Below are positions 1 to 34,698 of a stretch of DNA of 34,698 nt, one piece after another (position 1 is the stretch's first letter; each line of letters starts with the position of its first letter). Under the pieces are notes generated by a model. It was not told the DNA's origin. It saw nothing but the letters and a program-made list of their open reading frames with translations, and made no database searches. The position numbers and the translations under genes were made by a program. Source of the DNA: Thermotogae bacterium (lineage in GTDB: Bacteria > Hydrothermota > Hydrothermia > LBFQ01); assembly GCA_013153965.1 (NCBI GenBank), contig JAADDJ010000037.1, positions 1-34,698 of the forward strand, read 5' to 3'.

Positions 1-160
1 CCTGCGCCGCCTTCACCGCCTCATGCACATCCTCCTTCGTTGAGAGGGGATGGATGGAGATGACCTCGTCCGGATAGGAGGGGTTGCGATTCTCAAACGT
101 GCGCCCACTCTTGGAGGGAACCCACTTGCCGTTTATGAAGTTAAGGTACTCTCTTGCCAT
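1..160 (-). CDS. Aldehyde dehydrogenase family protein, N-terminal part (runs off the window)
   Basis: This gene is absent from the ORF track because its stop lies outside the window. Reading the minus strand from the ATG at 160 gives MAREYLNFINGKWVPSKSG, then RTFENRNPSYPDEVI and about 15 more residues to the edge. The FINGKW and FENRNP segments are typical of the N-terminus of NAD(P)-dependent aldehyde dehydrogenases, which oxidise aldehydes to carboxylic acids or acyl-phosphate equivalents. Only about 53 residues are visible, so neither the catalytic Cys/Glu nor the substrate class can be seen; glyceraldehyde-3-phosphate, semialdehyde and pyrroline-5-carboxylate types remain possible. A TAAAAT box 8 nt before the ATG supports this start. 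It is divergent from the aminotransferase gene at 274. Confidence 0.85.
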   Translation of the reverse strand, partial: MAREYLNFINGKWVPSKSGRTFENRNPSYPDEVISIHPLSTKEDVHEAVKAAQ

Positions 161-168
161 AGGAAGGA

Positions 169-174
169 ATTTTA
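169..174 (-). promoter_or_regulatory. -10 box TAAAAT, leaderless promoter of the aldehyde dehydrogenase gene
   Basis: On the minus strand TAAAAT is followed by 8 nt and then the ATG at 160. No Shine-Dalgarno site can lie on so short a leader. Confidence 0.7.
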
Positions 175-258
175 CCGTAGAGGATGCCCCGATTCATCCC
201 GCCTGCGGCAGAATCGTGGATTCCATCCGCGAATGCGAATCTCGGGCGAGGCCACCCT

Positions 259-264
259 TAGAAT
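259..264 (+). promoter_or_regulatory. -10 box TAGAAT, leaderless promoter of the ilvE-like gene
   Basis: TAGAAT is followed by ACTTGACAG (9 nt) and the ATG at 274. It selects this ATG over the upstream starts listed in the ORF track. No clear -35 hexamer is visible. Confidence 0.75.
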
Positions 265-273
265 ACTTGACAG

Positions 274-1422
274 ATGTCTGGATACATATACATGCACCGC
301 AAGGAGAAGGGCAGGATCGTTGAGGGATACGTTCCGTGGGACGAGGCCAAGATACACGTACTCTCACACGTCATACACTACAGCAGCGGTGTATTTGAGG
401 GGATACGCGGCTACATAACCGACAGGGGCGTGGCCATATTCAGGGGCAGGGACCACTATCGGAGGCTCGTCAGATCCGCCAAGATATACCGGATGTTCGC
501 ACAGGACTACATGCCCCCGGAGATAGCCGGAGACGGCATCCCTCCCGTTGAGCGGGTCGTGGATTACTTCATGAGGATAACCGGGGAGCTCATCCGTAAG
601 AACGACCTGTACAACAGGGCCAAGGAGGTCAAGGAGAAGGGGGACATGGCGAATCCCTTCGTGTATATAAGACCCGTCATCTACAGGGGATACGACGTGG
701 GCGACGACCCCATCCTCAAACCCCCTCTGGGAGTCAATCCCTTGGGCAACCCCGTTGAGTGGTTCATAGCCGTCTTCCTGTGGGATGACTATCTGGGGAC
801 CGAGGCTATAGAGAAAGGTGCGGACGTGATAACCTCCGCTTGGGCCAAGAATGCCCCCAGCACCACCCCGTTCATGGCCAAAGGTGCCTCCAACTACGCC
901 ACGGGGCAGCTGGCCAAGATGGAGAGCGTCCTGAGCGCCTTCTTCAAGGATTACGACAAGGTCAGAAGGTTGAAGATGGGAGATTCCCTGACGAGGGACG
1001 ACCTGTTCCTGCCGGTTGAAAGCATCCAGCTGACGGTATCCGGGCACGTGGCCGAGGGGACCGGCGAGAACATCTTCGTGGTCATTTACCGCGATGGGGA
1101 TCCCCAGAGGCCCATCATATACACGCCACCGATAGCAGCCTCAATACTCCCCGGCATAACGCGGGACTCCATAATCCGCATAGCCAAGGATGAGGGATAC
1201 GAGGTCGTGGAGACCATGATTCCTCGGGAGATGCTCTACATCGCCGATGAGGTCTTCTTCACGGGTACCGCGGCGGAGGTGACACCCATAAGGACCGTTG
1301 ATGGCATCCCGGTCGGAGCGGGCAAGCCCGGACCCATAACCCTCCACCTGCGCGAGATATACACCAAGCTCGTGAGGGGACAGATAGAGGACAGGTACGG
1401 TTGGGTGGAGTACGTTGAATGA
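274..1422 (+). CDS. ilvE: Branched-chain amino acid aminotransferase (class IV PLP enzyme)
   Basis: It transfers the amino group between glutamate and the branched-chain 2-oxo acids, the last step of Val/Leu/Ile synthesis, using pyridoxal phosphate in the cytoplasm. The family marks are [11 protein letters not shown] near the N-terminus, the probable PLP lysine K203 in [12 protein letters not shown], and [12 protein letters not shown] with [14 protein letters not shown] in the C-terminal half. At 382 residues it is about 75 longer than the usual 305-residue enzyme. The extra length comes from an insert around residues 105-125 ([17 protein letters not shown]) and another between the lysine and the GTGENIF motif. 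A D-alanine or ADC-lyase type class IV enzyme is less likely. It heads a run in which the next gene overlaps by ATGA. The start is fixed by a TAGAAT box 9 nt upstream. Confidence 0.88.
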
Positions 1423-1832
1423 AAACCTACACCAAGTACCTGTGGTTCAACACCCCCACCCGTAGGGCGGTGGTGCGCATTACGGATGACGTCAGGGAGG
1501 CCGTAAGGGAGTCCAAAGTGAAGGAGGGCCTATGTCTGGTCTCGGCCATGCACCTTACGGCCTCCGTCCTCATTCAGGACAACGAATCCGGCCTGCACGA
1601 GGACATATGGGAGTGGCTGGAGAGGCTCGCCCCCTACCGTCCCGACTACAGACATCACAGGACGGGGGAGGACAACGCCGACGCCCATTTGAAGAATCTC
1701 ATAACTCACCTTCAGGTAGTCCTCCCCATCACCAACGGGGATCTTGACCTCGGGCCTTGGCAGGAGATATTCTATTTTGAGTACGACGGCCAACGTCCCA
1801 AACGCGTCGTGATTAAAATCATCGGTGAATGA
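1419..1832 (+). CDS. yjbQ: YjbQ / UPF0047 family protein
   Basis: This 137-residue protein matches the YjbQ (UPF0047) family, annotated in other bacteria as secondary thiamine-phosphate synthase; its main physiological role is not settled. Visible family segments are [27 protein letters not shown] near the middle, [17 protein letters not shown], and a C-terminal [15 protein letters not shown]. The His and Glu residues in these segments are the conserved presumed metal-site positions. The ATG overlaps the ilvE stop (ATGA), so it is translationally coupled to ilvE, and it overlaps the next gene in the same way. Length is normal for the family. Confidence 0.85.
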
Positions 1833-2929
1833 AAAAGGTCGGGAATTTTGATTCGCTACTGACGGCGATAAGGGCGAGCGCGAACGTGGGTGGCAACTTC
1901 CTCTGGGAGTTCAAGGTGAAGGCCGGATCTCTGGAGGGAAGAATAATAACCCAAGGCGAGATGATCCTATACGCGGAGTACGGCGGCAAGAGGGGTTTGG
2001 ATGCCCTCATGGAACTTCAGAACTACGACGTACTGACGTACGAGGTCAATATCTACACGGGCGATATTCCGGAGCTCCACAACATCAAGCTTAGGGACTT
2101 GGAAACTTTGGACGTGAAGGCGGAGTACGAGGACGTTGAGCCCGTCGTCGTGGAGAGGATATTCTACGATTTCCTCGTTGAGATGGAGGATAAGGAGACC
2201 ACGGCCTTGGCCATATTCCCCTCCCGCGAGGGGCGCCCCGTCATGGCCGGCTTCATAGACGGCAGGTTGGTAGGTCTCAGAACTCCGGAGGAGACCTTCT
2301 CAACCGTTGAACTTTTGGACGAGTTGAGGACCTACAGGACACGCTTCCACATCCTTGAGGGTGAATTCGTACCTTACATGTCCGGATACTTCACCCTCAC
2401 CAAGTCGGCCATAGACACCCCCGCGGGGAGTTGGACTACGGAGAGGATAATCTCCCACGAGGGGACATTGGTATCCTTCGGAGTCGGGGATCGCATAATA
2501 GCCGTCTCCGACGGCCACAACCTCCTGATAGTCTTCAGACCTGTGGTCCCTCCGCAGATAACGAGCAAACTCCTGAAGGAATTCCAGAAGAAGGGGAGAC
2601 TGGTGGATGCGTATCCGGTGATTGAGATTGAGCCCATATTCCGATACAGCTTCAAGGACATAAAGGAGATACGTCGCACGTTTGACGCTCTGATAAAGGA
2701 GTCGCGAAAGCTGGTGGGTGAGATAATCTTCAACATGGCCAGCGATAGGGTCCTCAACTTCGCCCATCCCACCAACCCCTACCCGGACGAGTACGCCGAA
2801 TTCACGAAGAACGTATATAAGCAGTACGAGGACGAGATAGCCGCCTTCACGGGGAAACGCTGGAAGGAGATAAAGGCGAGCGTCCTCAAGGACGCCCCAG
2901 AACACGTAATTGAACTCTTCGGCTCTTAG
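1829..2929 (+). CDS. Unrecognised 366-residue protein, possibly with an N-terminal PATAN/DUF4388-like domain
   Basis: I do not recognise this protein with confidence. It has no signal peptide and no membrane segment, and looks soluble and mixed alpha/beta. Residues 28-70 ([20 protein letters not shown], then [20 protein letters not shown]) loosely resemble the DUF4388/DUF2226 or PATAN-type sensor fold, in which a small beta sheet carries a G-x-I...[11 protein letters not shown] pattern; this is an inference from pattern only. The middle (about 115-260) reads as a second alpha/beta region and the last 100 residues are helical. The start is coupled to YjbQ by ATGA overlap, and its end overlaps the following acyltransferase by about 20 nt, so it is co-transcribed with ilvE and yjbQ. 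Confidence 0.6.
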
Positions 2930-3497
2930 GGGGGCGTTCCTCCTGTACGACGCCCTCATGCGCACCTTGAGGGTGAGGGTTGTAGGTCAGGTCTTCTCAA
3001 AGGAGCGCCCCAGCATCTTCTTCTTCTGGCATCGCAACCTTCTGCCCTTGCCCCACGTATTCCGCAACACCCCCATACGGGTGATGGTCTCGCCCAGCAG
3101 GGATGGAAGGCTGATAGGGAGCCTCGTTGAGCTGAAGGGATTGGGCGTTATATGGTCCTCCCAGCACAAATCCCCCCTAAGGGGGGTGATCTCGGTCGTC
3201 CGGGCGTTGAGGGAGGGATGGAACGTGGCCATAACGCCTGACGGCCCCAAGGGCCCGGCGCGCTGCTTCAAAGTGGGGACCTTGGAGTTAGCCAGAAGGA
3301 GTGGGGCGAGGATCGTATTCGTGGGGGTGGGATTCTCCGCCGCCTACCGCCTGAACACTTGGGATTCGCTCCGGGTACCCATGCCGCTCTCATCGGTCGC
3401 CGTCGTGGTTGAGGAGGCCTACCCCGAGAGTCCCGAGGAGGCGGCCCGTCTTTTGGACGATTTGGACGCCCGGGCCTTCAACTATCTGGAGATTTGA
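2910..3497 (+). CDS. Lysophospholipid acyltransferase-like protein, DUF374 family
   Basis: The sequence FFFWHRNLLPLPHVF, SPSRDGRLIGSLVE and ITPDGPKGPARCFKVGTLELA, in that order, is the signature of DUF374 acyltransferases related to PlsC/LpxL enzymes. They are thought to add an acyl chain to a lipid or lipid A precursor at the inner membrane. The WH and DG motifs replace the classic HX4D. Length (195 aa) is normal. The ORF-track start is TTG at 2910, overlapping the previous gene by 20 nt without a visible Shine-Dalgarno site; the ATG at 2955 is an alternative but leaves little sequence before the FWH motif. The substrate cannot be told from sequence. Confidence 0.8.
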   Translation: MNSSALRGAFLLYDALMRTLRVRVVGQVFSKERPSIFFFWHRNLLPLPHVFRNTPIRVMVSPSRDGRLIGSLVELKGLGVIWSSQHKSPLRGVISVVRALREGWNVAITPDGPKGPARCFKVGTLELARRSGARIVFVGVGFSAAYRLNTWDSLRVPMPLSSVAVVVEEAYPESPEEAARLLDDLDARAFNYLEI

Positions 3498-3504
3498 GCC
3501 GCGG

Positions 3505-3510
3505 TAGAAT
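3505..3510 (+). promoter_or_regulatory. -10 box TAGAAT, leaderless promoter of the epimerase gene
   Basis: TAGAAT sits in the 20-nt gap after the DUF374 gene and is followed by AGACGCT (7 nt) and the ATG at 3518. It argues that the TTG start at 3494 in the ORF track is not used. Confidence 0.75.
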
Positions 3511-3517
3511 AGACGCT

Positions 3518-3919
3518 ATGGTCAAGCTCTCGCACATAGCGCTCGCCGTACCGGCCGAGGAGTACGAGGAGGTCAAGCGGAATCTGCGGGCCATACTCAA
3601 CGTATCCCCGCAGGAGAAGGAGCTCCCCCACGCCAAACTCAAGGTGGCCCTCTTCAAATTGGCCAACGCCACCGTGGAGCTGTTGGCCCCGACCGGGGAG
3701 GGGTCCGACATAGACAAATTCTTGGAAAAGCGCGGCAAGGGCATACACCACATAGCCCTCCAGGTGGATAGCATCGCGGATGAGGTTGAGAGGCTTGAGA
3801 GGGAGGGATTCGTTTTTTCCGTCAAGGATTACGAGGGGGCGAAGGGTGGGAAGGTTGCCTTCCTCCATCCCAAATCCACCGGAGGTTTCCTCTTTGAGCT
3901 GGTGGAGGAGGAGTACTAA
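3518..3919 (+). CDS. mce: Methylmalonyl-CoA epimerase (VOC family)
   Basis: It interconverts (R)- and (S)-methylmalonyl-CoA in the propionate/succinate route. The protein is a single glyoxalase/VOC unit pair: LSHIALAV at the N-terminus, GKGIHHIALQVDSI in the middle and GFLFELVE at the end. The probable metal ligands H6, H78 and E127 lie at the expected places. At 133 residues the length fits the family. I moved the start from TTG 3494 to ATG 3518 because a TAGAAT box ends 7 nt before it and because VKLSHIA is the usual N-terminus. No methylmalonyl-CoA mutase lies nearby, so another VOC dioxygenase-like role is possible. The stop overlaps the convergent glycosyltransferase gene by 4 nt. Confidence 0.82.
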   Translation: MVKLSHIALAVPAEEYEEVKRNLRAILNVSPQEKELPHAKLKVALFKLANATVELLAPTGEGSDIDKFLEKRGKGIHHIALQVDSIADEVERLEREGFVFSVKDYEGAKGGKVAFLHPKSTGGFLFELVEEEY

Positions 3920-4965
3920 CCCACCTCCGACAGCACCCTATTGACCTGCCCGGCCGTCCTCTCCCATGAGAAGCTCTTAACCCTCTCCAGCCCCCTCCTC
4001 ACGAACTCATCCCGCCGGGTCTCAAGCTGGCGCACGGCCTCAACCCAAGAGTCGGGATCGTCGGGGGAGGCGTACAGTATGGCGTCGCCTCCGGCCTCCA
4101 CGACCGTATCCGTCCCTATCACGGGACATCCCGACGCCATGGCCTCAAGGACGGGGAGGCCGAATCCCTCGTATCTGGAGGGAAACACCAGAGCGAAAGC
4201 CCCCGCGTACAGGAGGGGAAGCTCCTCCCGGGGGACGTAGCCGCGCAGATGCACCCTCTCGGATACTCCCAAAGAGGTCGCCAACTCCCGCAGGAACTCC
4301 GCGTACTCGTCCGACGCACCCACGACTATGAAGTCGTAGGGCAACTTGGGCAGCGCCCTCACCACCACGTGCGCGTTCTTGTAGCGGTACCGGGCCCCCA
4401 CCATGAGGAGGTAGGGCCTGCCGAAACCGAGCCTCCTCCTCGCCTCCGAGCCATCCATGGGCCTGAAGAGCTCCTCATCGTAGGATGGATAGGCCACCAG
4501 AACCCTCTCAGGCTTCACCCGGAAAAACTCCACTATATCCGCCTTGGAGCGCTCCGAGACGGTGATTATCCTATCAACCTTCCAGATGAAGGGGCGGAGG
4601 AAGAAGCGGTAGAGATAAGCCTGCTCCCGATACTTATCCGGCAGGATTATGGGTTGAATGTCATGCACCGTTATCACCTGCGGCCCTCTCCAGAGGAGCG
4701 ATATGGAGTGGTAGGTCCTGTAGAGGATACCTCTACCCGTGAGCCTCTGGATATACAGGAGCCTCCTGACGGCCGCCCCCTTACCGTACTTGGGGGCCGT
4801 ATCCTTCGGCGCCAACCGAATCCGCGCACCCGGAAAGAGCTCGGGAGAGTGCGTGAGGACCGTCATATCCTCCCGGAGGCGGAGAAGTTGCCTGACGACG
4901 TTTATCGTGTATATGCCGATGCCCATGGGACGGTCATCTGCTATTAGGGTATCCGCCAGAATCAC
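3916..4965 (-). CDS. Glycosyltransferase family 4 (GT-B fold)
   Basis: This 349-residue protein transfers a sugar from a nucleotide donor, most likely in surface glycan or lipopolysaccharide synthesis in the cytoplasm. The N-terminal acceptor domain contains MGIGIYTINVVRQLLR, and VDRIITVSERSKADIVEFF marks the inter-domain region. The C-terminal donor domain has VGARYRYKNAHVVVRAL, LPLLYAGAFALVFPS and EGFGLPVLEAMASGCPV with the E-x7-E pair. The GTG start overlaps the stop of the CopD-like gene upstream (GTGA), so the two are coupled. The 3' end overlaps the epimerase gene on the other strand. The exact donor and acceptor are unknown. Confidence 0.85.
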   Translation of the reverse strand: MILADTLIADDRPMGIGIYTINVVRQLLRLREDMTVLTHSPELFPGARIRLAPKDTAPKYGKGAAVRRLLYIQRLTGRGILYRTYHSISLLWRGPQVITVHDIQPIILPDKYREQAYLYRFFLRPFIWKVDRIITVSERSKADIVEFFRVKPERVLVAYPSYDEELFRPMDGSEARRRLGFGRPYLLMVGARYRYKNAHVVVRALPKLPYDFIVVGASDEYAEFLRELATSLGVSERVHLRGYVPREELPLLYAGAFALVFPSRYEGFGLPVLEAMASGCPVIGTDTVVEAGGDAILYASPDDPDSWVEAVRQLETRRDEFVRRGLERVKSFSWERTAGQVNRVLSEVG

Positions 4966-5474
4966 ACCCTGAACCCTCCCCTTACTATCATCACTCCGAA
5001 GAGGGCCATGAATAGGCTCAGGAAGAAGACGGTCATGCCGACGGCTCGGGCGTAGGCCTTGTACTTGCGGTACTCCTTTGAATCCGGGGCCTCCTCACCG
5101 AGGCGGGTAGCCTTGGGACCTATCAGAAAGTCGTGGAAAGCCTGAAGGATGAGTATGGCCGTGTAGAAGGTGAGCTTGAGGGCGACGAGTCTCCCCGTGG
5201 GACCCCGGTACGTCTCCAACTTGAAGAGGTCGTACCACTCAATCCCCCTCACGTGCAGTTGGTACAGGCCCGTTATGAAGAAGAGGCTCAAGGCCCACCA
5301 TCCCAAGCGGCTGAAATTGACCCCCGTCTCATGCACCAGCCGGTGGTAGAGGTGGAGATACTGGGGCTTCCTTATGGCCGGGAGAAGAACGAAGGAGAGG
5401 AAGAGCATCCCCCCGATCCAGAAGGTAGCCATAAGGATGTGGGTATATACCGACAGGATGTAGAGCCACCTCAC
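4962..5474 (-). CDS. CopD/DUF4149-like four-helix membrane protein
   Basis: A small integral membrane protein of about 170 residues with four hydrophobic stretches: YILSVYTHILMATFWIGGM, WWALSLFFITGLYQL, LVALKLTFYTAILILQAFHD and VGMTVFFLSLFMALFGVMIV. The helix-borne histidines (H12, one in LYHRLVHETG, one in LQAFHD) recall CopD/HemJ-like proteins that bind copper or heme; the function is inferred only from this resemblance. I chose the GTG at 5474 rather than the ATG at 5615 because a TATAAT box lies 9 nt before it and because the upstream extension is a reading of the preceding gene in another frame. The following glycosyltransferase is coupled through GTGA. Confidence 0.72.
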   Translation of the reverse strand: MRWLYILSVYTHILMATFWIGGMLFLSFVLLPAIRKPQYLHLYHRLVHETGVNFSRLGWWALSLFFITGLYQLHVRGIEWYDLFKLETYRGPTGRLVALKLTFYTAILILQAFHDFLIGPKATRLGEEAPDSKEYRKYKAYARAVGMTVFFLSLFMALFGVMIVRGGFRV

Positions 5475-5483
5475 GTGGCGGCT

Positions 5484-5489
5484 ATTATA
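5484..5489 (-). promoter_or_regulatory. -10 box TATAAT, leaderless promoter of the CopD-like gene
   Basis: Minus-strand TATAAT then AGCCGCCAC (9 nt) and GTG at 5474. It lies in the 29-nt gap after the phosphatidyltransferase gene and decides the start. Confidence 0.75.
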
Positions 5490-5503
5490 CCGGCGGTTCG
5501 CGG

Positions 5504-6082
5504 CTACCTGAGGCGCACGTAGGCCAGATACATCCTCTGGACGACGGTAATGACGAGGAGGATATCGTATATACCCAACCCCCAGAGGAGGGCATCCCTC
5601 CCGAAGGCCCACCATATGAGAAGTAATGCCAATAGGCCCAAGAATCTCGGGTAGCGGCTCATCAGTCCCTCCCGCAGGCTCCCGCCTAAACCCTCAACCC
5701 TCGCCCTGATGTAGCTGATCAAATAGGCCGAGATGAGCGCCACCAGCGACAGAATCAAGATCTCGGCCTCCCCGCGGAAGTGGTACGCCATGGCCGAGAA
5801 GAGTAGGCCGTCGGTTAGCCTGTCCAAGGTGGAGTCCAGAAAGGCCCCGAAACGGCTCGTCCTACCCGTGAGCCTCGCCACGCCACCGTCAAGGGCATCC
5901 AGAGGAGCGAAGGTGGCCAGCCATATGGCCGCCCACAGGGGGCGTCCCGTCGCTATGAGGATGGAGCCTCCCGCCGTCAGCAGGGCGGACAGCACCGTCA
6001 GGACGTTCGGGGATACCCCCGTCTTGGCCAGAAGTTCCACCAGAGGCCTTATGAGGGAGCGGGAGAACTGCTCGTAATTCAT
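5504..6082 (-). CDS. CDP-alcohol phosphatidyltransferase (PgsA-like)
   Basis: An integral membrane enzyme that moves a phosphatidyl group from CDP-diacylglycerol to an alcohol such as glycerol-3-phosphate or inositol-phosphate. The full family motif D-x2-D-G-x2-A-R-x8-G-x3-D-x3-D is visible as D62, D65, G66, A69, R70, G79, D83 and D87. Several hydrophobic helices surround it and the length (192 aa) is normal. The acceptor alcohol cannot be read from the motif, so pgsA is only a likely assignment. The ATG overlaps the stop of the M23 lipoprotein gene (ATGA), so the two are translationally coupled. Confidence 0.85.
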   Translation of the reverse strand: MNYEQFSRSLIRPLVELLAKTGVSPNVLTVLSALLTAGGSILIATGRPLWAAIWLATFAPLDALDGGVARLTGRTSRFGAFLDSTLDRLTDGLLFSAMAYHFRGEAEILILSLVALISAYLISYIRARVEGLGGSLREGLMSRYPRFLGLLALLLIWWAFGRDALLWGLGIYDILLVITVVQRMYLAYVRLR

Positions 6083-7209
6083 ATTATCGGATTCCTCCTC
6101 GCCTCCATCAGGCGGCGGTACTCCCGCAGGACCGCCTGAAACTCATCCCTGAGGTCCTCCGGTAGGGGCTTCTCAGGCTCGGACTTTATCAGGAGAGGAT
6201 TTATCCGCTTACCGTAATGCCGAACCTCATAGTGGAGGTGGGGACCGGTGGATAGGCCGGTTGAGCCCACCGCCCCTATGCTCTGCCCCTGCTCAACGTA
6301 CTGCCCCCGCTTGACGTATATGCGCGATAGATGGCCGTAGAGGGTCGTATAGCCGTTGTTGTGGCGCACCACGACCGTCTTTCCGTAGCCCCTCCTCCAG
6401 CCGGCGAATATCACGGTGCCGTTGGCCACGGAGCGCACGGGAGTTCCGTAGGGTGCGGCGTAATCCACGCCGTGGTGAGGCCTCCATCGGCGGAGTATAG
6501 GATGGAATCTGACACCGAATCCGGATGTGATTCGGTAGGACCTCAGCGGGGAGCGGAGGAAGGCCCTCCGTACGCTGTTGCCCTCTTCATCGTAGTAGGA
6601 GCCCATGAATCGGGCCGCCACGTGCCTCCCAACGCTCTTTCCGATGTACTCGGCGTAATAGACCGTGCCGTCGGGGGCGTAGAGGACCTTAAGGGAATCC
6701 CCCTTTTGGGTCTCCGTGGCGAAATCCACCTCCCAAGCGAAGATATTGACGAGATTTACCAGGAGGATGGGGGGCAGACCCCTCTCCATGAAGGCATCCC
6801 ACAGGGTACTCTTCACCTCAACCTCAGCGTAGTTGGGGGTGAGGGCGCGGAATTTCCGATGACCCCGGAACATGCCCTTGGACGGCACGTACTCCCATAC
6901 CATACTCCTTCTCCTCAACTCCAATCTCATCAGGGAATCGTTCCTATAGACCGCGCGGACGGTGTCCCCCACCCGCAGGATGCGAACGCTGTCGGCCAGA
7001 AGACGTACGAACCTCCCCTTCACGGAATCTGGAACGCCCGTGAGTCTGCCTACCACGCTCGCGAAAACGTCCCCCCTCTCGGCTACGACCTCCCGCTTGG
7101 ACACTTTAGGAGCCGGATTATCCGGAAGGACCACCTCCTCGTCGCTCCTGCATCCTGCCAAGATGAGAATGATTGGAAGGTAATAGGGAACGCTCTTCGC
7201 CCACTTCAA
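6079..7209 (-). CDS. M23 (LytM) family metallopeptidase, lipoprotein
   Basis: A predicted lipid-anchored cell-wall endopeptidase or LytM-type activator. The N-terminus KWAKSVPYYLPIILILAGC is a standard lipoprotein signal with lipobox LAGC and lipidated C20. A middle region (about 60-200) resembles the two OapA/LysM-less N-terminal domains of MepM-type enzymes. The catalytic M23 domain follows with RPHHGVDYAAPYGTPV and GPHLHYEVRHYG, giving the H-x3-D and H-x-H zinc ligands, so it should be an active zinc peptidase. The start is TTG, 6 nt after a TAAAAT box. It is divergent from the oxidoreductase gene. The next gene overlaps by ATGA. Confidence 0.88.
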   Translation of the reverse strand: MKWAKSVPYYLPIILILAGCRSDEEVVLPDNPAPKVSKREVVAERGDVFASVVGRLTGVPDSVKGRFVRLLADSVRILRVGDTVRAVYRNDSLMRLELRRRSMVWEYVPSKGMFRGHRKFRALTPNYAEVEVKSTLWDAFMERGLPPILLVNLVNIFAWEVDFATETQKGDSLKVLYAPDGTVYYAEYIGKSVGRHVAARFMGSYYDEEGNSVRRAFLRSPLRSYRITSGFGVRFHPILRRWRPHHGVDYAAPYGTPVRSVANGTVIFAGWRRGYGKTVVVRHNNGYTTLYGHLSRIYVKRGQYVEQGQSIGAVGSTGLSTGPHLHYEVRHYGKRINPLLIKSEPEKPLPEDLRDEFQAVLREYRRLMEARRNPII

Positions 7210-7215
7210 GACGGT

Positions 7216-7221
7216 ATTTTA
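7216..7221 (-). promoter_or_regulatory. Leaderless promoter (TAAAAT) of the M23 lipoprotein gene
   Basis: Minus-strand TAAAAT, then 6 nt, then the TTG at 7209. A TTGGAA at 7240-7245 lies 18 nt further upstream and is one of the better -35 candidates in the window. Confidence 0.75.
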
Positions 7222-7286
7222 CCTCGGAACTCCGCAGGGTTCCAATCACTGCCAGATAATCCCACTTAAGTTCTCGGAGGCGACCT

Positions 7287-7292
7287 TAGAAT
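7287..7292 (+). promoter_or_regulatory. -10 box TAGAAT, leaderless promoter of the korA-like gene
   Basis: TAGAAT followed by ACTCGGCTT (9 nt) and ATG at 7302. It forms a divergent pair with the promoter at 7216-7221. Confidence 0.75.
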
Positions 7293-7301
7293 ACTCGGCT
7301 T

Positions 7302-9806: not shown

Positions 9807-10532
9807 TTGAGCTCGGTCCTGCGAACGGAGAAACTGGTAAAGATATACCGCAAGCGGCGGGTGGTCAATGAGGTGAGCATAGAGGTGAAGCAGGGGGAGA
9901 TAGTTGGCCTTCTGGGTCCCAACGGTGCCGGCAAGACGACCACCTTCTATATGATCGTGGGAGCCATAAGGCCCAACGCGGGCAAGGTCTTTCTGGACGA
10001 CAGGGATATAACCAACCTACCCATGTTTAAGAGGGCGAGAATGGGCATAGGATACCTGCCGCAGGAGCCCTCCGTCTTCCGCTATCTGTCGGTATGGGAC
10101 AACATATACGGCGTTCTGGAGATGAGGGGGTACCCCCGCAAGGAGGCCCGGCGCAGGACGGAGGAGGTCATAGACATGCTCAACCTCGGGAAGGTGGTAA
10201 AGAGCCTCGGGGTCCAGCTGTCGGGTGGGGAGAGGAGGCGGGTGGAGGTGGCCCGGGCCATAGTTTTGGAGCCCAAATTCCTCCTTTTGGACGAGCCCTT
10301 CGCCGCCGTGGACCCCAAAACGCGGGAGGAGATTCAGGAGATGGTCCTCAAGCTCAAACAGATGAACATAGGCGTCGTCATCACCGACCACAACGTGCGA
10401 GAGACCTTGGAGATAACCGATAGAGCCTACATCATCTACGAGGGCCGGATACTCTTGGAGGGGACGACCGAGTACCTCATAAACAACCCCGAGGCGCGCA
10501 AACTCTATCTGGGGGAGAAGTTCCGGATGTGA
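9807..10532 (+). CDS. lptB: LPS export ABC transporter ATP-binding protein
   Basis: The ATPase that powers LPS extraction from the inner membrane (LptB2FGC) and its delivery across the periplasm. Walker A is GPNGAGKTT (residues 37-45). YLPQEPSVFRYLSVWDNI around the Q-loop is typical of LptB, followed by signature LSGGERRRVEVARA, Walker B FLLLDEPFAAVDP and the switch histidine in VVITDHNVRETL. Length of 241 aa is standard. The TTG start is supported by the TAAAAT box 6 nt upstream. lptF, lptG, lptA and lptC are not in the window. The following glycosyltransferase is coupled through GTGA. Confidence 0.93.
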   Translation: MSSVLRTEKLVKIYRKRRVVNEVSIEVKQGEIVGLLGPNGAGKTTTFYMIVGAIRPNAGKVFLDDRDITNLPMFKRARMGIGYLPQEPSVFRYLSVWDNIYGVLEMRGYPRKEARRRTEEVIDMLNLGKVVKSLGVQLSGGERRRVEVARAIVLEPKFLLLDEPFAAVDPKTREEIQEMVLKLKQMNIGVVITDHNVRETLEITDRAYIIYEGRILLEGTTEYLINNPEARKLYLGEKFRM

Positions 10533-19761: not shown

Positions 19762-20865
19762 ATGGCTTGGAAGAAGCTGACGCAACTGCGAAGTTTCTGG
19801 CGCGACCGCCACGACGCGTACCTGCTATACAAACCCGAGGCTTGGATGGGGTCGGATCTCCGATACATCACCGGCTTCTCGGGGTCAACCGGAGTCTTCC
19901 TCCAAACCCGTCGCAGGAACTTCATCCTGGTGGATTTCCGATACAAGTCGCAGGTGAGAGAGGAGGTCAGGGAGGGGATCACGGTTCTGGACGTCCCTCC
20001 GGGCGAGTCCCTCATTCAGGTTCTCGGCGACAAGCTCCGGGAGCTGGGTGTCAAGTCGGTGGCCTTGGAGGGGAACGCTCCGGTGTATTTCCTCAAAGCT
20101 CTGCGTAAGACCCTCAGGGGAAGCGGTATCAGGCTGTACGCCGTTTCGGGTCTGATAGCACGTTTGAGGGTCCGCAAGGAGGCCCACGAGATTGAGAGGT
20201 TAAGGCGGGCCCAAGAGCTCACCGACCGACTCTTTGAGTGGGTTCTGAACAACGTGAGACCGGGGAAGATGACGGAGAGGGATCTTGCCCTTGAGATGGA
20301 GGTCTGGGCCAGACGCAACGGGGCCGACGGCATGTCCTTCCCGCCCATAGTGGCGGTGGGTGCGAACTCCGCCAAGCCCCACGCCCGGCCCACCGACACC
20401 CTGATACCCACCAGGGGAGTCCTGCTCTTGGACTTCGGCCTAAAGGTGGAGGGCTACGTGTCCGATATGACCCGCACCCTGTGGATAGGGCGCAGGGTTC
20501 CCTCCCTCTTCAAGAGGGCGTACGAGGTGGTTCTGGAGGCGCAGGAGAGGGCCATAAGAAAACTCTCCTTCTCCGGAGCCGTTCCGGCCAAGGAGGTAGA
20601 TGCCGCCGCCAGAGAGTACATAGACTCAACGGAGTTCAAGGGGACTTTCGGCCACGGTCTGGGCCACGGTATAGGTATGGACGTGCATGAGGCCCCCTCC
20701 CTGAATCCCAAGTCCGAGTACGTCCTCAAGGGGAAGGAGGTCGTGACTGTTGAGCCGGGTATCTATCTGGATGGGGAATTCGGCGTGCGAATAGAGGACG
20801 TGGTGATCGCGGGCTCGGGAGAGAATATCACCGGCTCCCCCAAGAGGGAGATAATCAAACTCTGA
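19762..20865 (+). CDS. pepP: Xaa-Pro aminopeptidase/dipeptidase (M24B)
   Basis: A two-metal peptidase that cleaves Xaa-Pro bonds in peptides. The N-terminal creatinase-like domain (1-130) precedes the pita-bread domain with all ligands: LLLDFGLKVEGYVSDMTRT (two Asp), FGHGLGHGIGMDVHEAPSL (His), VVTVEPGIYLDGEFGVRIED (Glu and final Glu). Length of 367 aa fits the Xaa-Pro dipeptidase group better than the 440-aa aminopeptidase P. The leaderless promoter fixes the ATG. The 3' end overlaps the convergent purF by 11 nt. Confidence 0.9.
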   Translation: MAWKKLTQLRSFWRDRHDAYLLYKPEAWMGSDLRYITGFSGSTGVFLQTRRRNFILVDFRYKSQVREEVREGITVLDVPPGESLIQVLGDKLRELGVKSVALEGNAPVYFLKALRKTLRGSGIRLYAVSGLIARLRVRKEAHEIERLRRAQELTDRLFEWVLNNVRPGKMTERDLALEMEVWARRNGADGMSFPPIVAVGANSAKPHARPTDTLIPTRGVLLLDFGLKVEGYVSDMTRTLWIGRRVPSLFKRAYEVVLEAQERAIRKLSFSGAVPAKEVDAAAREYIDSTEFKGTFGHGLGHGIGMDVHEAPSLNPKSEYVLKGKEVVTVEPGIYLDGEFGVRIEDVVIAGSGENITGSPKREIIKL

Positions 20866-26249: not shown

Positions 26250-26255
26250 GGGGAG

Positions 26256-26681: not shown

Positions 26682-26687
26682 CACCAG

Positions 26688-26693
26688 TATAAT
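26688..26693 (+). promoter_or_regulatory. -10 box TATAAT, leaderless promoter of the ppiD-like gene
   Basis: TATAAT then ACCCGCCT (8 nt) and ATG at 26702. Confidence 0.75.
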
Positions 26694-26701
26694 ACCCGCC
26701 T

Positions 26702-28537: not shown

Positions 28538-28545
28538 AGGAGGTC
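28538..28545 (+). promoter_or_regulatory. Shine-Dalgarno site of deoC
   Basis: AAGGAGGT lies about 5 nt before the ATG at 28549. It is the clearest Shine-Dalgarno site in the window and belongs to an operon-internal gene, in contrast to the leaderless first genes. Confidence 0.75.
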
Positions 28546-28548
28546 GCC

Positions 28549-29244
28549 ATGAACTATGAGGAGATTCGCAGGTTGGCGGAGGAGATAGAGCGGGAGCCGG
28601 TTGATGAGAGCTTGGACATCCGTCCCTACATAGAGAATACCCTCCTGAAGCCGGAGGCCACCCCCGAGCAGGTCCGGAGCTTCTGTGAGGAATCTCTACG
28701 CTACGGATTCCTCGGCGTCTGCGTCAATCCCGCCTACGTGAGACTGGCCAGGGAGGTGGTCGGAGATGAACTCAAGGTCGTCAGCGTGGTGGGTTTCCCC
28801 TTGGGAGCCAGCCGGAGCGACGTCAAGGCCTACGAGGCGGCCAAGGCCGTTGAGGATGGGGCGGATGAGGTGGATATGGTCATAAACGTTGGGCTTCTCA
28901 AGGCCGGGAGGTACGACGAGGTCAGGAGGGATATAGAGGCGGTGGTGAAGGCCGCCGGCGTCCCCGTGAAGGTGATAATAGAGACGGGGCTCCTGAGCGA
29001 CGACGAGAAGGTGATAGCCTGCCGTCTGGCGGAGGAGGCGGGGGCTGCCTTTGTCAAGACATCAACGGGATTCGTGAAGGGAGGGGCTACCATATACGAC
29101 GTTCTACTGATGAGTAGGGCCACGAAGTTGCCGGTGAAGGCCTCCGGTGGCATAAGGACGAAGGAGTTCGCCCTAAAACTTATCAAGGCTGGCGCCAAAC
29201 GCCTCGGTACCAGCAGGGGACCGCAGGTGGCGGGGTTGGCTTAG
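28549..29244 (+). CDS. deoC: Deoxyribose-phosphate aldolase
   Basis: It splits 2-deoxyribose-5-phosphate into glyceraldehyde-3-phosphate and acetaldehyde in deoxynucleoside breakdown. The class I TIM barrel shows IENTLLKPEATPEQV, VVSVVGFPLGAS, EVDMVINVGLLKAG, KVIIETGLL, the Schiff-base lysine K170 in FVKTSTGF, and KASGGIRTKEFAL. Length (231 aa) is typical. Translation is directed by AAGGAGGT. The acetaldehyde it produces could feed the aldehyde dehydrogenase at the left end, but the two genes are far apart. The stop overlaps the convergent secreted-protein gene by 4 nt. Confidence 0.95.
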   Translation: MNYEEIRRLAEEIEREPVDESLDIRPYIENTLLKPEATPEQVRSFCEESLRYGFLGVCVNPAYVRLAREVVGDELKVVSVVGFPLGASRSDVKAYEAAKAVEDGADEVDMVINVGLLKAGRYDEVRRDIEAVVKAAGVPVKVIIETGLLSDDEKVIACRLAEEAGAAFVKTSTGFVKGGATIYDVLLMSRATKLPVKASGGIRTKEFALKLIKAGAKRLGTSRGPQVAGLA

Positions 29245-30827
29245 CGCACCAGTACGGTGAAGCTTCTCCTGTTTATCAGTACCACGTAGGTGCCGGGTTT
29301 GAGGTTCAGGAAGGTCTCGCCGGCGAGGACTCCCCGCGTGAGGACGAGGCGTCCGTCAGGCCGGTAGATGCGCACGAGCGAATTCCTGTTGCTCTTTATG
29401 AGAATTCCCCCGTCCCTACCCTCAACCTCCGTGAAGACGTAGGAGATGGAAGCCTCCGATACGTCGGTCTCGTCGTTGCTGCCGATTATTCCGCACGTGT
29501 CGTTGTAGGGATAGGCTCCGCAGTCGGACACGGCGTCGTTATCAACGACGACGAGGATATTCCTACCGGCGGAGGGTAGAACGAGGATCTCGGAGCATCC
29601 ATCCCCATCCACGTCGGCGAAGGAGGAGCCTTCGCCCACCACTCCACCGGCCGTCCATTCTATCCCTCCGGTACCGTTGAACATGCGGAAGACCCCATCT
29701 CCGAAGCACATGTAGCTGCTCCAGTAGGGGACGACGGCTATCTCCAGCTGACCATCGCTGTCAAAGTCGGAGACCACCCTACCCCCTCCGTGGGTCATGT
29801 TGGGACCCGTGAAGGTGTTGCTCCACAGGGGTAATCCGGAGGCGCCGTTTATCACGGTGACCCCTCCCGGAGTTCCGCACGAGCACGTTCTAAGATGTCC
29901 GACTATCACGTCGTTTATGGAATCGCCGTTCAGGTCGGCGGTTGATATGGGACCGCAGGCCATCTGTCCGGATATCACGTAGTCCCAGAGAACGCTTCCA
30001 TCGGTGCCTCGCAGGGCGTATATGTGGCCGTTGTCGTTGGAGACTATCACCTCATCCACGCAGTCGCCCGTGAGGTCCACCAAAGTCGCGGGCGTGCGGG
30101 TGTAGTAGCGGGTGCCCACGCTCACGCTCCACAGGGCCGCGCCGGTGCGGAAATCGTAGGCATAGACCGTGCCGTTCCCGGCGACCACCACCTCCAGATT
30201 CCCATCGCCATCTATATCGTTTATGGCGGGGGATTTGGCTATACCTATCAGGGTATTCCCGCCGCTGGGGGCCGACCATCTCACCGAGCCGGTCAGGGGA
30301 TTGAGGGCGTAGAGGGTCCCGTCGTCATTTACGAGTATGAGGGTGTCAGGGCCATCGTGGGCCACGGCGGGAGCGCCGGCGTTGGAGCCGCAGCCCACCG
30401 ATGCGGTCCAGATGACGGAGCCGTCGGTCCCCCTGAGGAGTTGGGTATTCGTGGAGCTGCAGACCACCACCTCCAGACCGGGAATTGAGGGAATCAGGTC
30501 GGCCGCCGCCGGGGCTCCCCACGACCCTCCGGGGTAGCTCGTGCTCCAGAGGGTGCTACCGGTATTCCCTCTCAATGCTATCACGCTGGCCCCGAGACCT
30601 CCCAAACAGCCGAAGACGATCTCGGGAAGTCCGTCGGCGTTTATATCTCCGACAACGGGCTGGGACTCGCCCGTACATAGGGATACGGTGTATTTGACGC
30701 TCCATCCGCTTATGCGTCCTCTCAGAGCGCCGAAACCGTTGTGCCCTGTGCTGCCATGGAGCATTAACCAATCCCCCACGGCAACGTGCTTGGGGGGGAA
30801 CTGTGAAATCATTAAGGCGATAATCAT
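29241..30827 (-). CDS. Secreted FG-GAP/PQQ-like repeat protein with T9SS-like C-terminal domain
   Basis: A 528-residue extracellular propeller protein. Six or more repeats carry calcium-binding FG-GAP-like loops: DINADGLPEIVFGC, DIDGDGNLEVVVAG, DLTGDCVDEVIVSND, DLNGDSINDVIVGH, DFDSDGQLEIAVV and DVDGDGCSEILVL. They alternate with PQQ-like strands such as VIALRGNTGSTLWSTSYPGG and IYALRGTDGSVLWDYV. The last 60 residues (LVRIYRPDGRLVLTRG, LKPGTYVVLINRRSFTVLVR) resemble the T9SS type A sorting domain. The leader is only MIIALMISQ, and the start is fixed by a TATAAT box 9 nt upstream. It probably binds or displays at the cell surface; no enzyme motif is seen. Confidence 0.83.
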   Translation of the reverse strand: MIIALMISQFPPKHVAVGDWLMLHGSTGHNGFGALRGRISGWSVKYTVSLCTGESQPVVGDINADGLPEIVFGCLGGLGASVIALRGNTGSTLWSTSYPGGSWGAPAAADLIPSIPGLEVVVCSSTNTQLLRGTDGSVIWTASVGCGSNAGAPAVAHDGPDTLILVNDDGTLYALNPLTGSVRWSAPSGGNTLIGIAKSPAINDIDGDGNLEVVVAGNGTVYAYDFRTGAALWSVSVGTRYYTRTPATLVDLTGDCVDEVIVSNDNGHIYALRGTDGSVLWDYVISGQMACGPISTADLNGDSINDVIVGHLRTCSCGTPGGVTVINGASGLPLWSNTFTGPNMTHGGGRVVSDFDSDGQLEIAVVPYWSSYMCFGDGVFRMFNGTGGIEWTAGGVVGEGSSFADVDGDGCSEILVLPSAGRNILVVVDNDAVSDCGAYPYNDTCGIIGSNDETDVSEASISYVFTEVEGRDGGILIKSNRNSLVRIYRPDGRLVLTRGVLAGETFLNLKPGTYVVLINRRSFTVLVR

Positions 30828-30836
30828 AAGCTTCCC

Positions 30837-30842
30837 ATTATA
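30837..30842 (-). promoter_or_regulatory. -10 box TATAAT, leaderless promoter of the FG-GAP protein gene
   Basis: Minus-strand TATAAT then GGGAAGCTT (9 nt) and ATG at 30827. It fixes the N-terminus MIIALMISQ. Confidence 0.76.
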
Positions 30843-30873
30843 AAGGGGCGATGGAAGGCGGCATACGTGGATT

Positions 30874-32556
30874 TCAGCCGTACTTCCTCATTTGAAACTC
30901 CCACATCTTGGCGTACTCTCCACCTCTTTGAAGGAGCTCCTCATGCGTTCCCTCCTCTACCACCTTCCCGCCCTTGAAGACGAATATCCTATCAACGTTC
31001 CTGACGCTCCAGAGGCGATGGGTGACCAGAATCAGGGTCTTGTCCCTGTAGAGGTTCATCATGAAGTTGAAGATCTCGTACTCCGACTTCGGGTCCAGAT
31101 TCTCCGTAGGCTCGTCAAATATGACAATATCGGCATTCTCCCTGTACAGGGTCCTCGCCAACGCTATCCTCTGCCACTCCCCTCCGGAGGGCTCAATACC
31201 CCCGAACTCCCGCCCTATCTGGATATCGGGTGGGAGCTCTATACCTACCCACTTCAGAACCTCCATCAGCCTCCGGTGGTCTATGCCGTCGTCTCCCCCG
31301 TAGTCCGAGAGTATGACATTATCCCGCAAACTCAACTTGTACCTTCCGAAATTCTGGAAGGCCATGGTTATCCTGTCGGAGGAGAGTTTTATCCTTCCCT
31401 CCGTCGGAGCGTACAGGCCGAGAATTATCCTGCACAGGGTAGTCTTACCCGCTCCGTTGTGCCCCACGAAGGCGACCTTTTTTCCTTTGGGTATTGTGAT
31501 GTTAATGCCGTCAAGTACGTACCGTTTCCCGTCGTAGGTGAATCTTAGATTCTCGCACTTTATAGCCATCTCCCCATCCAAGTTTCCGATTTCCCTCCTA
31601 TCCACATCCCGCACGGGCATGTTTATGAAGCTCTCCAGCTCCTTGAAGGTCCCTAAGGTCCTGCTTGAGTACTCCGAGAACCATGCTATGAGACTGAGCA
31701 AGGCCTCCTGCAGATAGACGAAGGAAAGGACGATTGAGCCCAAGAACCGACCTTTGAATCCCAAATACACTGCTGCTATTGATAGCACAGCCCCGAAGGT
31801 TATGGCGGGGATGATCTTCAGGAGGTAGGACCTCCTTATCCTGCGCATCCTGCCGTGGAAGGAGCGGTAAGCCTCGTTGAAGCGGTTTCTAAAGAGCCTC
31901 ACGGCCCCGAAGGATAGGATTTCATATATGTGGGGGAAGGTGAAGACTGCCGATAGCGTGTAATTCATCCGGCGATTCTCCAAGCTGGTGTCGTATATGG
32001 CCCACCACGACTTGTAGGAGAATTTTCCCCACACGATGCTGTAGGGCAGGAGGGCCAGAATGATTATGAAGGGCAGTACGGGGTTCAGGCGGAATATGGC
32101 CGCGGAAATGCCAACTATCGTGAGGGACGACTTCAGTATGTGCGAGAAGGTCCAGAGGAAGTTCGCCGGGGCGAATCTGGCCATGCTCTTTATGACCTCC
32201 AACCGGTTATGCACGTCGGGGGACTCAAACTGCTCCACGCTCTTGAACTTCTCCAGCTTCGCGAAGATCCTATCCGCCACGTACTGGGAGAACTTCTCGG
32301 TCAAGTTGCCGCTGATGTGCGCGTTGAGGGGATACGTGATGCTGTCCATGAAGACGAGCAGGCCCACCGCCACTATAAGAAGCACGGGGTTGTGAAGCGC
32401 ATCCCCCTCGCCTATGAATCGGACGACGAAAGCCGGCGCAAGTCCCGCCGGGAGCATAAGCCCCATGAACATCAGGACCTCCCACGGCGCTATCCTAAAG
32501 AGCAGGGTGAAGTTGCGTAAAATCACCCGTAGGCTTTCCACGAGATAAACCTCCAT
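30874..32556 (-). CDS. ABC exporter, fused membrane and ATP-binding domains (MsbA-like half transporter)
   Basis: A 560-residue half transporter that would work as a dimer to export a lipid, peptide or drug. Six hydrophobic helices fill residues 15-310. The ATPase domain has Walker A GHNGAGKTT (about 363), Q-loop AFQNFGRY, Walker B DIVIFDEPTENLDP and H-loop LVTHRLWSV. The signature is PSGGEWQRIALARTL, with the first Leu replaced by Pro and Gln by Glu. The ORF-track start is ATG 32556, but a GGAGG site 8 nt before GTG 32541 makes that a good alternative. Unlike most first genes here, its likely promoter lies about 90 nt upstream, so the mRNA has a leader. Substrate is unknown. Confidence 0.87.
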   Translation of the reverse strand: MEVYLVESLRVILRNFTLLFRIAPWEVLMFMGLMLPAGLAPAFVVRFIGEGDALHNPVLLIVAVGLLVFMDSITYPLNAHISGNLTEKFSQYVADRIFAKLEKFKSVEQFESPDVHNRLEVIKSMARFAPANFLWTFSHILKSSLTIVGISAAIFRLNPVLPFIIILALLPYSIVWGKFSYKSWWAIYDTSLENRRMNYTLSAVFTFPHIYEILSFGAVRLFRNRFNEAYRSFHGRMRRIRRSYLLKIIPAITFGAVLSIAAVYLGFKGRFLGSIVLSFVYLQEALLSLIAWFSEYSSRTLGTFKELESFINMPVRDVDRREIGNLDGEMAIKCENLRFTYDGKRYVLDGINITIPKGKKVAFVGHNGAGKTTLCRIILGLYAPTEGRIKLSSDRITMAFQNFGRYKLSLRDNVILSDYGGDDGIDHRRLMEVLKWVGIELPPDIQIGREFGGIEPSGGEWQRIALARTLYRENADIVIFDEPTENLDPKSEYEIFNFMMNLYRDKTLILVTHRLWSVRNVDRIFVFKGGKVVEEGTHEELLQRGGEYAKMWEFQMRKYG

Positions 32557-32609
32557 ATAGCATCAGAAGATTCTGTCGCGCCTATCCCCTACATTCGGAG
32601 ATAGCAACG

Positions 32610-32627
32610 GGGTAGCATTTGCCACCC
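32610..32627 (-). promoter_or_regulatory. Hairpin in the leader of the ABC exporter mRNA
   Basis: On the minus strand GGGTGGC, loop AAAT, GCTACCC forms a 7-bp stem with one G-U pair, between the probable promoter and the start codon. There is no T run after it on either strand, so it is not a standard terminator. It could be a regulatory structure or a mRNA stabiliser. Confidence 0.45.
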
Positions 32628-32644
32628 TTAAATCCCAGAGGGAT

Positions 32645-32650
32645 ATTCTA
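32645..32650 (-). promoter_or_regulatory. Candidate -10 box TAGAAT of the ABC exporter gene
   Basis: Minus-strand TAGAAT in the intergenic space after the DUF5916 gene. Transcription would start near 32638, leaving a leader of 80-100 nt before the exporter start codon. Confidence 0.5.
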
Positions 32651-32685
32651 CGCTTGAGGGGAAATGGTCGCCTGTGGTGGCTTTC

Positions 32686-34698
32686 TCATAGCCTGAAGTA
32701 CCCCTTGAGCTTTACGCCGAATATGTAGTCGGCCCGATGGTAGGATAGGGGATTTACACTCAAGGAATCATCGGGGAGGAGCTTGGTGTTGAGGGATATG
32801 TACAGGCCGGTAAGTCCCCTCTCAAAGGAGAGGAAGACCCAAACCCTGTCGTATATCCCGGTGATAGCCTCCTCTCTCTGCAGCACCTTCTCCCATCCCA
32901 AGCGCGCGGTGGCTATGTTCCCCACCGAGAGGGTCAGGCGCAGGATGTTTCTCAACGTGGGTGCCATCCCCGGATAATTCCACAGGGAGATGTCGTTGGA
33001 AACCCGTAGATACTGGGAGAAGCGCCACGGAAGGCTCATATACACCTGCGAGTGTGTCCCCAGCTCCCCCGTCGCGTAGTTATACATCTCCCCGGCGTTG
33101 AGCGTGAGGACGATGTAGTTTGACCTGAAGTTGAAGAGCGACATGAGGGCGAAGTTCCTGCCGAAGAAGTGTATGAGAGTGTCCCTGTAGGGGTCGTACT
33201 CGTACTCGTCGCCCACTCCCAGCGCTGTGAAGACGGAGTGTCCCCTGCCGAACGACAGGGCGAAGTTGCCCTCTACTCCCTTGGAGTAAGGCTCCCCCGC
33301 CTCCTTCGCCATGTGCGCCTGAAAGCCGAAGGATAGAGAGTTGAGGCTCAAGGTGTTGTACAGGGTGCGCCTCATCTTAAAGAGCATATCTCTGGACGCG
33401 GCGTAAGGCATGAAGGTTATACGCTCGGCGTAGAAGAGGGAGTCTATCTCACTGTAGAGGATGCCAGTTTCCCACTCGGGGGACTTATACCCGAAGCCGA
33501 AGTTTCTAAGCCACCCGCTCTTCCATCCCGATAGCTCATCGTAATAGTCCGCATGCATGAGGGCGAATCCGCCCAGAAGGTATCCGTAGTTGAAGGCCAC
33601 GTCCATATCCGCCAAAATGTTGGTGTCGGGAACCTGCACGAATTGGCCCGGATTGAAAAGGTCCGGAATCGGATAATATCCGGAGTACCTTCCCCAGAAT
33701 GCTCCCACGGAGAGGTATTTGCCCTTGTAGTTGGTCCTTAGGAGCTTCCAATCTTGACCCGAATCTGTGCGCACGTTCATGAGGGCCAAATTTGTACCGA
33801 GTACGGATATTCCCCCCTTGATACCGTAGGTTATGGGTATATCGTTCCCATACATGTCCGACCCTATGTTGCGGGTATATACGAGCATCGTGTAGGGGAG
33901 GAAGTCGTTGAAGTTGGGCTGGAAGAGCTCCTTATCGTGGGTGAAGAAGGGGCGCCTCTCCTGAAGGAAGTACCGGTAGCGGCTCACGTTTATGTAGTAG
34001 GGATCGGATTCCACGTCCGCGAAGTCGGGCTTTACGGTCAGATGTAGGAAGTTGTCCTCCAAGGTGAAGCGGAGGTCCCCTCCACCGTAGATTCTGCTCT
34101 GCTCCTCGTAGTCGCCCGTCCATGGGTTGAGGAGGGAATCCTTTCTGTAGGTCAGATAGGGGATGAGACTCAAAGCCCAAGAGAGGGGGGCGTCTATCTC
34201 AACCGGATGCATGTCGGGATACACTCCGTGCCGGTTCAGAGGGGAGCGCAGCTGATAGCCATCGGATGTCCATCGGGAGAAGGCCACGCCCCAGACCGTT
34301 CCCCTGCGATAACGGAATGCCTTGAAGGGAATTTTCATCTCCACGATGTAGCCATCCTCCGTCAGAGTGCCGGCGGCGTCCCACTCCGTATCCCACTGGG
34401 AGTTGAATATGCCTCCATTCACTTCCACGTCCGCCCTGTTGCCGAAGACGTCGGCGGAGAAGATGTAATATCTCTTACCGTTCCCACCGTAGGGGTCCAA
34501 CGCGAAGGCCACGTTATCCGGCGACAGGCTCCCACGACTTCCCCTCTGAAGTACCGGTCGCTTGCCGGAGCATTTGAAGGCCACGTAGAGGGCCTCATCC
34601 GTGTAAAAGAATCTGGCTTCCGTCGGATAGGGTGGGTCGCCGCCCAGCGAGGGATGCTGCTGGCGAAAGTCCCGAATGATCAAGGCGGAATCCCACAC
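32686..34698 (-). CDS. DUF5916-type outer membrane protein with CBM9-like N-terminal domain (5' end missing)
   Basis: The gene runs off the right edge; the GTG at 34698 is most likely an internal codon. The first visible 170 residues resemble a CBM9-like sugar-binding domain (EARFFYTDEALYVAFKCSG, DNVAFALDPYGGNGKRYYIF, YIVEMKIPFKAFRYRRG). The next part has the DUF5916 hallmark LTVKPDFADVESDPYYINVS and FLQERRPFFTHDKELF. The remaining 400 residues alternate polar and aromatic residues like an outer-membrane beta barrel and end in GVKLKGYFRL. Family members are annotated as membrane-associated hydrolases or carbohydrate-binding proteins without proven activity. At least 670 residues are present. 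It is followed on the same strand by the ABC exporter. Confidence 0.82.
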   Translation of the reverse strand: MWDSALIIRDFRQQHPSLGGDPPYPTEARFFYTDEALYVAFKCSGKRPVLQRGSRGSLSPDNVAFALDPYGGNGKRYYIFSADVFGNRADVEVNGGIFNSQWDTEWDAAGTLTEDGYIVEMKIPFKAFRYRRGTVWGVAFSRWTSDGYQLRSPLNRHGVYPDMHPVEIDAPLSWALSLIPYLTYRKDSLLNPWTGDYEEQSRIYGGGDLRFTLEDNFLHLTVKPDFADVESDPYYINVSRYRYFLQERRPFFTHDKELFQPNFNDFLPYTMLVYTRNIGSDMYGNDIPITYGIKGGISVLGTNLALMNVRTDSGQDWKLLRTNYKGKYLSVGAFWGRYSGYYPIPDLFNPGQFVQVPDTNILADMDVAFNYGYLLGGFALMHADYYDELSGWKSGWLRNFGFGYKSPEWETGILYSEIDSLFYAERITFMPYAASRDMLFKMRRTLYNTLSLNSLSFGFQAHMAKEAGEPYSKGVEGNFALSFGRGHSVFTALGVGDEYEYDPYRDTLIHFFGRNFALMSLFNFRSNYIVLTLNAGEMYNYATGELGTHSQVYMSLPWRFSQYLRVSNDISLWNYPGMAPTLRNILRLTLSVGNIATARLGWEKVLQREEAITGIYDRVWVFLSFERGLTGLYISLNTKLLPDDSLSVNPLSYHRADYIFGVKLKGYFRL

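Follow-up and report, generated by a model that had tools for sequence, protein, structure and literature searches.

The tetranucleotide TCGA is absent from the whole of a 34,698-bp contig of an uncultured Thermotogae bacterium (JAADDJ010000037.1, here called the window), and it is nearly eliminated from the metagenome-assembled genome (MAG) to which that contig belongs. We consider it very probable that this genome has been cleared of TCGA through long-term selection exerted by a resident type IIP restriction-modification (R-M) system of the TaqI kind. A long-resident enzyme of this type had been proposed from the letters of the window alone (the original prediction). The proposal is supported by three sets of observations: a depletion that is independent of codon phase, TaqI-type operons in related genomes, and a sequence overlap that joins the end of contig C54 of this genome to contig C10 of a relative (G002), on which such an operon lies.

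Elimination of TCGA from the window and from its genome

A string search of the window (positions 1..34698, no strand assigned) found no TCGA, where a Markov model built on 3-mers and 2-mers predicts 104.5 copies and 100 dinucleotide shuffles of the same sequence give 172 ± 12; the complete absence first noticed by eye is thus real. CTAG is likewise missing (0 against a Markov expectation of 65), and GATC stands at 0.39 of its expectation, neither of which had been noticed in the original prediction. The palindromes said in the original prediction to be present do occur, namely GATC (68 copies), ACGT (166), CCGG (245) and GGCC (311). The triplet CGA is found 567 times in the window and never after a T; two occurrences that had been singled out earlier, CTGCGAACG at 9819..9827 and GTGCGAATA at 20785..20793 (both on the + strand), retain CGA behind a base other than T.

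The depletion extends over the entire parent MAG (G000; 63 contigs, 1.528 Mb, 90% complete), in which the window is contig C58 in full. Counting of 4-mers over this genome, a check suggested in the original prediction, gave 55 copies of TCGA where about 5,017 are expected, an observed-to-expected ratio (O/E) of 0.011 and hence nothing near the expected frequency. Thirty-five contigs, together 614 kb, are free of the word, and contig C43 offers 107,245 bp without a single copy. When RNA genes and one aberrant contig (C32, described below) are set aside, the O/E falls to about 0.003, and in coding DNA it is 0.002.

TCGA is not the only word that is avoided. CTAG occurs 66 times against about 2,800 expected (O/E 0.024); GTNNAC, GTNAC and CCWGG are strongly avoided as well, and GATC stands at 0.43. 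All members of this set are palindromic, and the lowest O/E among non-palindromic 4-mers in the genome is about 0.56-0.57. Such a pattern is expected of symmetric enzymes that act on double-stranded DNA, and an avoidance at the level of mRNA was rejected on the ground that strong avoidance is confined to palindromic words.

The avoidance overrides codon choice and is felt in every codon phase, as had been claimed for the window and as is now seen genome-wide. Across 1,291 open reading frames (ORFs; 1.39 Mb), with expectations obtained by synonymous resampling, the three phases hold 7, 6 and 2 copies of TCGA against 1036, 5151 and 246 expected (O/E 0.007, 0.001 and 0.008), or 15 against 6,433 in total. 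Phenylalanine before GA is written TTT 1394 times and TTC once, while elsewhere TTC is the usual codon (16322 TTC, 2325 TTT). Before GA, the share of the valine codon GTC drops from 0.299 to 0.001 and that of GTT rises from 0.056 to 0.449; leucine shows the same pattern, as does isoleucine, which the original prediction had not named, and serine TCG before A is replaced mainly by TCA. Among the 4,521 arginine codons that follow a T, 2 are CGA; behind other bases this codon is used 1,942 times.

The window itself is ordinary chromosome of an uncultured bacterium, with metabolic, envelope and housekeeping genes that include an LpxC-FabZ fusion, methionyl aminopeptidase, RicT, a 2-oxoacid:ferredoxin oxidoreductase subunit, a PPIase and an ATP-binding cassette (ABC) transporter, among others. 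In a scan of genome contigs, the LpxC-FabZ protein matched sequences from varied phyla, none at more than 42% identity. As stated in the original prediction, it contains no R-M gene, none being found among the 20 longer ORFs scanned.

A TaqI-type operon in related genomes and its trace at a contig end

TaqI of Thermus aquaticus recognises TCGA; its endonuclease, R.TaqI, corresponds to the family PF09573, and the structure of its methylase, M.TaqI, is found in PDB entries 2ibs and 1aqi. A PF09573 (RE_TaqI) endonuclease of 251-260 amino acids is encoded in four relatives of the window's genome, three belonging to its own family (G001, G002 and G006) and one to another family (G029). In each case the match covers the whole domain at more than 205 bits, and the frame is open and without stops. 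Upstream in all four lies a methylase gene with PF07669 and PF12950 (TaqI_C) domains, which overlaps the endonuclease gene by 4-8 bp; its product has the motifs PACxxxQF and NPPYG and matches M.TaqI in the PDB (E 5.6e-79). By its sequence, this methylase is a gamma-class enzyme of the N6-adenine (N6A) type, with an NPPY motif and a TaqI_C recognition domain. In no further genome does a TaqI_C methylase of this size adjoin a TaqI endonuclease. The operon resembles the TaqI system in its two protein families, its M.TaqI motifs and its whole PF09573 domain, and it differs in that it belongs to an uncultured bacterial lineage, lies outside the window and is incomplete in the window's own bin. Membership in these families, together with the matching avoidance, suggests that the operon acts on TCGA.

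Avoidance among 40 relatives was surveyed in samples, each no longer than 20 kb, and by a pattern count over whole genomes; two of the samples (G014 and G037) read as N and were unusable, and those of low GC content rest on few expected sites. Strong avoidance of TCGA (O/E 0.01-0.09) is seen in G000, G001 and G003-G006, and weaker avoidance in G002 (0.41) and G007 (0.37). It is also present in G009, G016, G028, G029 and G033, while 21 genomes show none (O/E > 0.6). The carriers of PF09573 are avoiders to differing degrees (G001 0.04, G002 0.41, G006 0.09, G029 0.13), and the family is found in 0 of the 21 non-avoiders, giving a one-sided Fisher p of 0.015 that is based on four carriers and ignores kinship.

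The search for TaqI-like genes in the genome itself, also called for in the original prediction, succeeded in part: the start of a methylase was found, and neither an endonuclease nor a full methylase is in the bin. At the end of contig C54 (36133-36256), tblastn identifies a GTG start and the first 41 codons of a TaqI-type methylase, still open and intact where the contig ends. The last 91 bp of C54 are identical to the first 91 bp of contig C10 of G002, on which the remainder of the operon lies. Several contigs of G000 overlap one another by exactly 91 bp, a length that has the signature of an assembler k-mer and points to one assembly graph. Another contig of G002 (C114) matches this end of C54 over 146 bp at 99%, so that the contigs form a fork pattern, and a sampled 3.5 kb of G002 contig C10 contains no TCGA where 9-15 copies are expected. 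The simplest reading is a single assembly graph in which the paths of two related populations converge on a common TaqI contig, and binning assigned that contig to G002. The sequence at this junction is strong, if indirect, evidence, and G000 very probably carries a TaqI-type operon that was lost in assembly or binning; MAGs are known to lose acquired and repeated sequence (PMC9723686).

If the genome does carry the operon, a scenario can be proposed for the loss of its sites. An R.TaqI-like enzyme would cut TCGA, and an M.TaqI-like enzyme would methylate the adenine of the same word and so protect the host. If protection failed at times, every TCGA would be a liability, and this incomplete protection would be the selective cost through which sites were lost, mostly by the synonymous change of TCGA to TTGA where the codon permits. 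The end state would be a chromosome in which TCGA is kept only by RNA function, in the T-loops of transfer RNA (tRNA) and transfer-messenger RNA (tmRNA) and in 16S, and in recently acquired DNA.

Several observations weigh against a resident TaqI-type system. Searches of the G000 bin for PF09573 and PF12950 found neither, and the bin holds no complete methylase or endonuclease of this type. In G003, G004 and G005 (85-93% complete), whose O/E values are 0.02-0.07, no TaqI methylase or endonuclease was detected, nor was any TaqI gene detected in G016 (100% complete; O/E 0.13); either these MAGs are incomplete with respect to such genes, or there are other enzymes specific for TCGA. In addition, G002, whose bin contains the operon, avoids TCGA least in its family, with an O/E of 0.41 that was measured on a single contig from a bin with 7% contamination. 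Finally, the association between gene and avoidance comes from four genomes with kinship ignored.

A further idea, unlikely but not negligible, is that the host depends less on methylation than on having so few sites, and that self and non-self are told apart by word content. Since the 1.5 Mb retain only a few dozen copies of TCGA, most of them in tRNA genes, there would be almost nothing for the methylase to protect, and a high endonuclease activity would become affordable. The tRNA genes would in that case be the last sites to be purged.

Alternative explanations for the loss of TCGA

One alternative, which we regard as improbable, is that a TCGA-specific R-M system of a non-TaqI sequence type is resident across the genus, with the TaqI operon being gained and lost as an accessory. 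Such a system would account for the avoidance in G003, G004 and G005, and G000 contains a possible candidate. On contig C62 (L061:247-1601), a beta-class N6A-type methylase gene overlaps an ORF of 205 amino acids with a DX(n)SXK-like stretch; by its sequence the ORF is probably a restriction enzyme, of no known family, with no match in the PDB, PADLOC or NCBIfam. Homologues of the pair are intact in G001 and G003 and have in-frame stops in G025, G007 and G028. However, G025 possesses the pair and is a non-avoider (O/E 0.76, with 9 of 12 expected sites), and neither of the avoiders G004 and G005 has the endonuclease; the C62 pair was rejected on these grounds as the sole cause of TCGA loss. An N4-cytosine (N4C)-type methylase on contig C8 has counterparts, as judged by size and score, in the non-avoiders G008 and G018. 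No further family-wide candidate was found, and the word that is avoided throughout the class is CTAG rather than TCGA.

Far less probable is the possibility that the genome is a relic, its sites having been removed by an R-M system which it no longer has. This would explain why no complete TaqI operon is present in the bin; yet about 15 sites remain outside RNA genes and C32, against about 5,000 expected, and mutation would rebuild sites if selection were not ongoing. Genomes of the genus have also diverged considerably (G001 and G003 each have a C62 endonuclease with 67% identity to that of G000), and still the avoidance has nearly always been kept. In addition, the beginning of the methylase frame is still open and intact where C54 ends.

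Equally remote is a mutational decay without any nuclease, in which a C5-methylase would produce TmCGA and deamination would convert it to TTGA or TCAA. Where the codon permits (valine, leucine, isoleucine and serine), replacement is indeed almost only by the transition product, but the same bias is expected of selection that acts through the commonest mutation. At phase-3 sites, where T precedes an arginine CGA codon, a transition yields a stop or glutamine, and decay would leave such sites in place under purifying selection; nevertheless, they are depleted as strongly as the others (2 of 246 expected, O/E 0.008), and their share passes mainly to CGC and CGG, so that it is the DNA word on which selection acts. 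A sequence-motif scan of G000 found no C5-methylase, and methylases of the M.TaqI type produce N6-methyladenine.

The remaining sites and the implications of the purge

The 55 copies of TCGA that remain in G000 are unevenly distributed. Structured RNA genes hold 26 of them: 24 in tRNA and tmRNA genes found by ARAGORN, mostly as the T-loop sequence TTCGA, one in a tRNA gene that a contig end truncates, and one in the first part of a 16S gene, which was identified from its sequence and not with a model. The non-coding or unassigned sequence of the genome as a whole has 26 copies against 430 expected, a residue made up largely of tRNA T-loops. Another 14 are on C32 (L032; 3.9 kb), which also carries 33 GTNNAC sites (8.5/kb against 0.25/kb genome-wide) and, given a density so far above that of the genome, is almost certainly foreign or misbinned. 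One copy lies in a spacer on C16 within the clustered regularly interspaced short palindromic repeats (CRISPR) arrays of the genome (L016:21-576, L057:133-358 and L057:10222-10506); one other spacer contains CTAG, and an exact-match search of IMG/VR with two spacers returned no match. Among the final 14, several are in stretches of lower GC content that look like acquired DNA: three are on C3:1-11000 (GC 0.50, where there are also 7 copies of CTAG), C23 has two around 12.4 kb (GC 0.47), and C54 has another two around 33.5 kb (GC 0.49). A type IIG/ISP restriction-methylase gene on C60 (L059:2-2701), truncated by the contig end, contains one leftover TCGA.

There are hints that the purge extends into the tRNA genes themselves. 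Of the 46 tRNA genes that ARAGORN finds in G000, 24 have TTCAA (A57) and 22 have TTCGA, and one of the 24 also has TTCGA elsewhere. Avoiders have more copies of GGTTCAANTCC than non-avoiders do (Mann-Whitney p = 0.007, ignoring phylogeny), with four genomes of very high counts, probably due to repeats, left out of the comparison. In G012, G017, G025 and G028 (family f3) the same sequence is present 92-176 times per genome, far beyond the number of tRNA genes, and probably forms repeat arrays.

The near-elimination of TCGA is a known kind of phenomenon that is unusually complete here. In Helicobacter pylori, TCGA (HpyV) is one of several avoided palindromes, is depleted several-fold or more, and its loss is ascribed to resident R-M systems; its O/E is 0.05 genome-wide, at 0.18 per kb against 3.53 expected from GC content (PMC3849833). 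The corresponding value in G000 is 0.011 (about 0.003 and 0.002 in the subsets given above), although the expectations were computed differently. More generally, of the genome-site pairs that involve orthodox type II systems, 47.9% show avoidance, defined as a ratio of 0.78 or below, while none is seen for types I, III and IIC/G (PMC4687349). G000 is similar in that the avoided word is the site of a type II system present in several related genomes, a distribution which suggests that the system is presumably long-lived. It differs in that the sites are almost eliminated, and that those left over are mostly of RNA function or foreign origin.

The other avoided words have a different distribution. 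CTAG is avoided nearly throughout the class, and it is widely underrepresented irrespective of R-M systems (PMC4687349); an apparently solitary N4C-type methylase of G000 with an SPPY motif (L008:1314-2198) may, from its sequence, be a candidate CTAG enzyme. Avoidance of ACGT, GATC, GGCC, GTAC and GTNNAC varies between genera and even inside one genus, with GTNNAC being avoided in G000, G002 and G003 and not in G001, G004 and G005.

Finally, we note that these properties have practical and evolutionary implications. The TCGA content of such genomes is a tracer of foreign or misbinned DNA, which flagged C32 at once, and avoidance combined with assembly-graph overlap can reveal an R-M operon that was lost by binning. 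About 40 genomes are available from the class, with different palindromes purged independently and some of them almost completely. We suggest that genomes of this kind make it possible to test the influence of R-M systems on chromosomes, the extent that a purge can reach, and what brings it to a halt, as RNA function does here.

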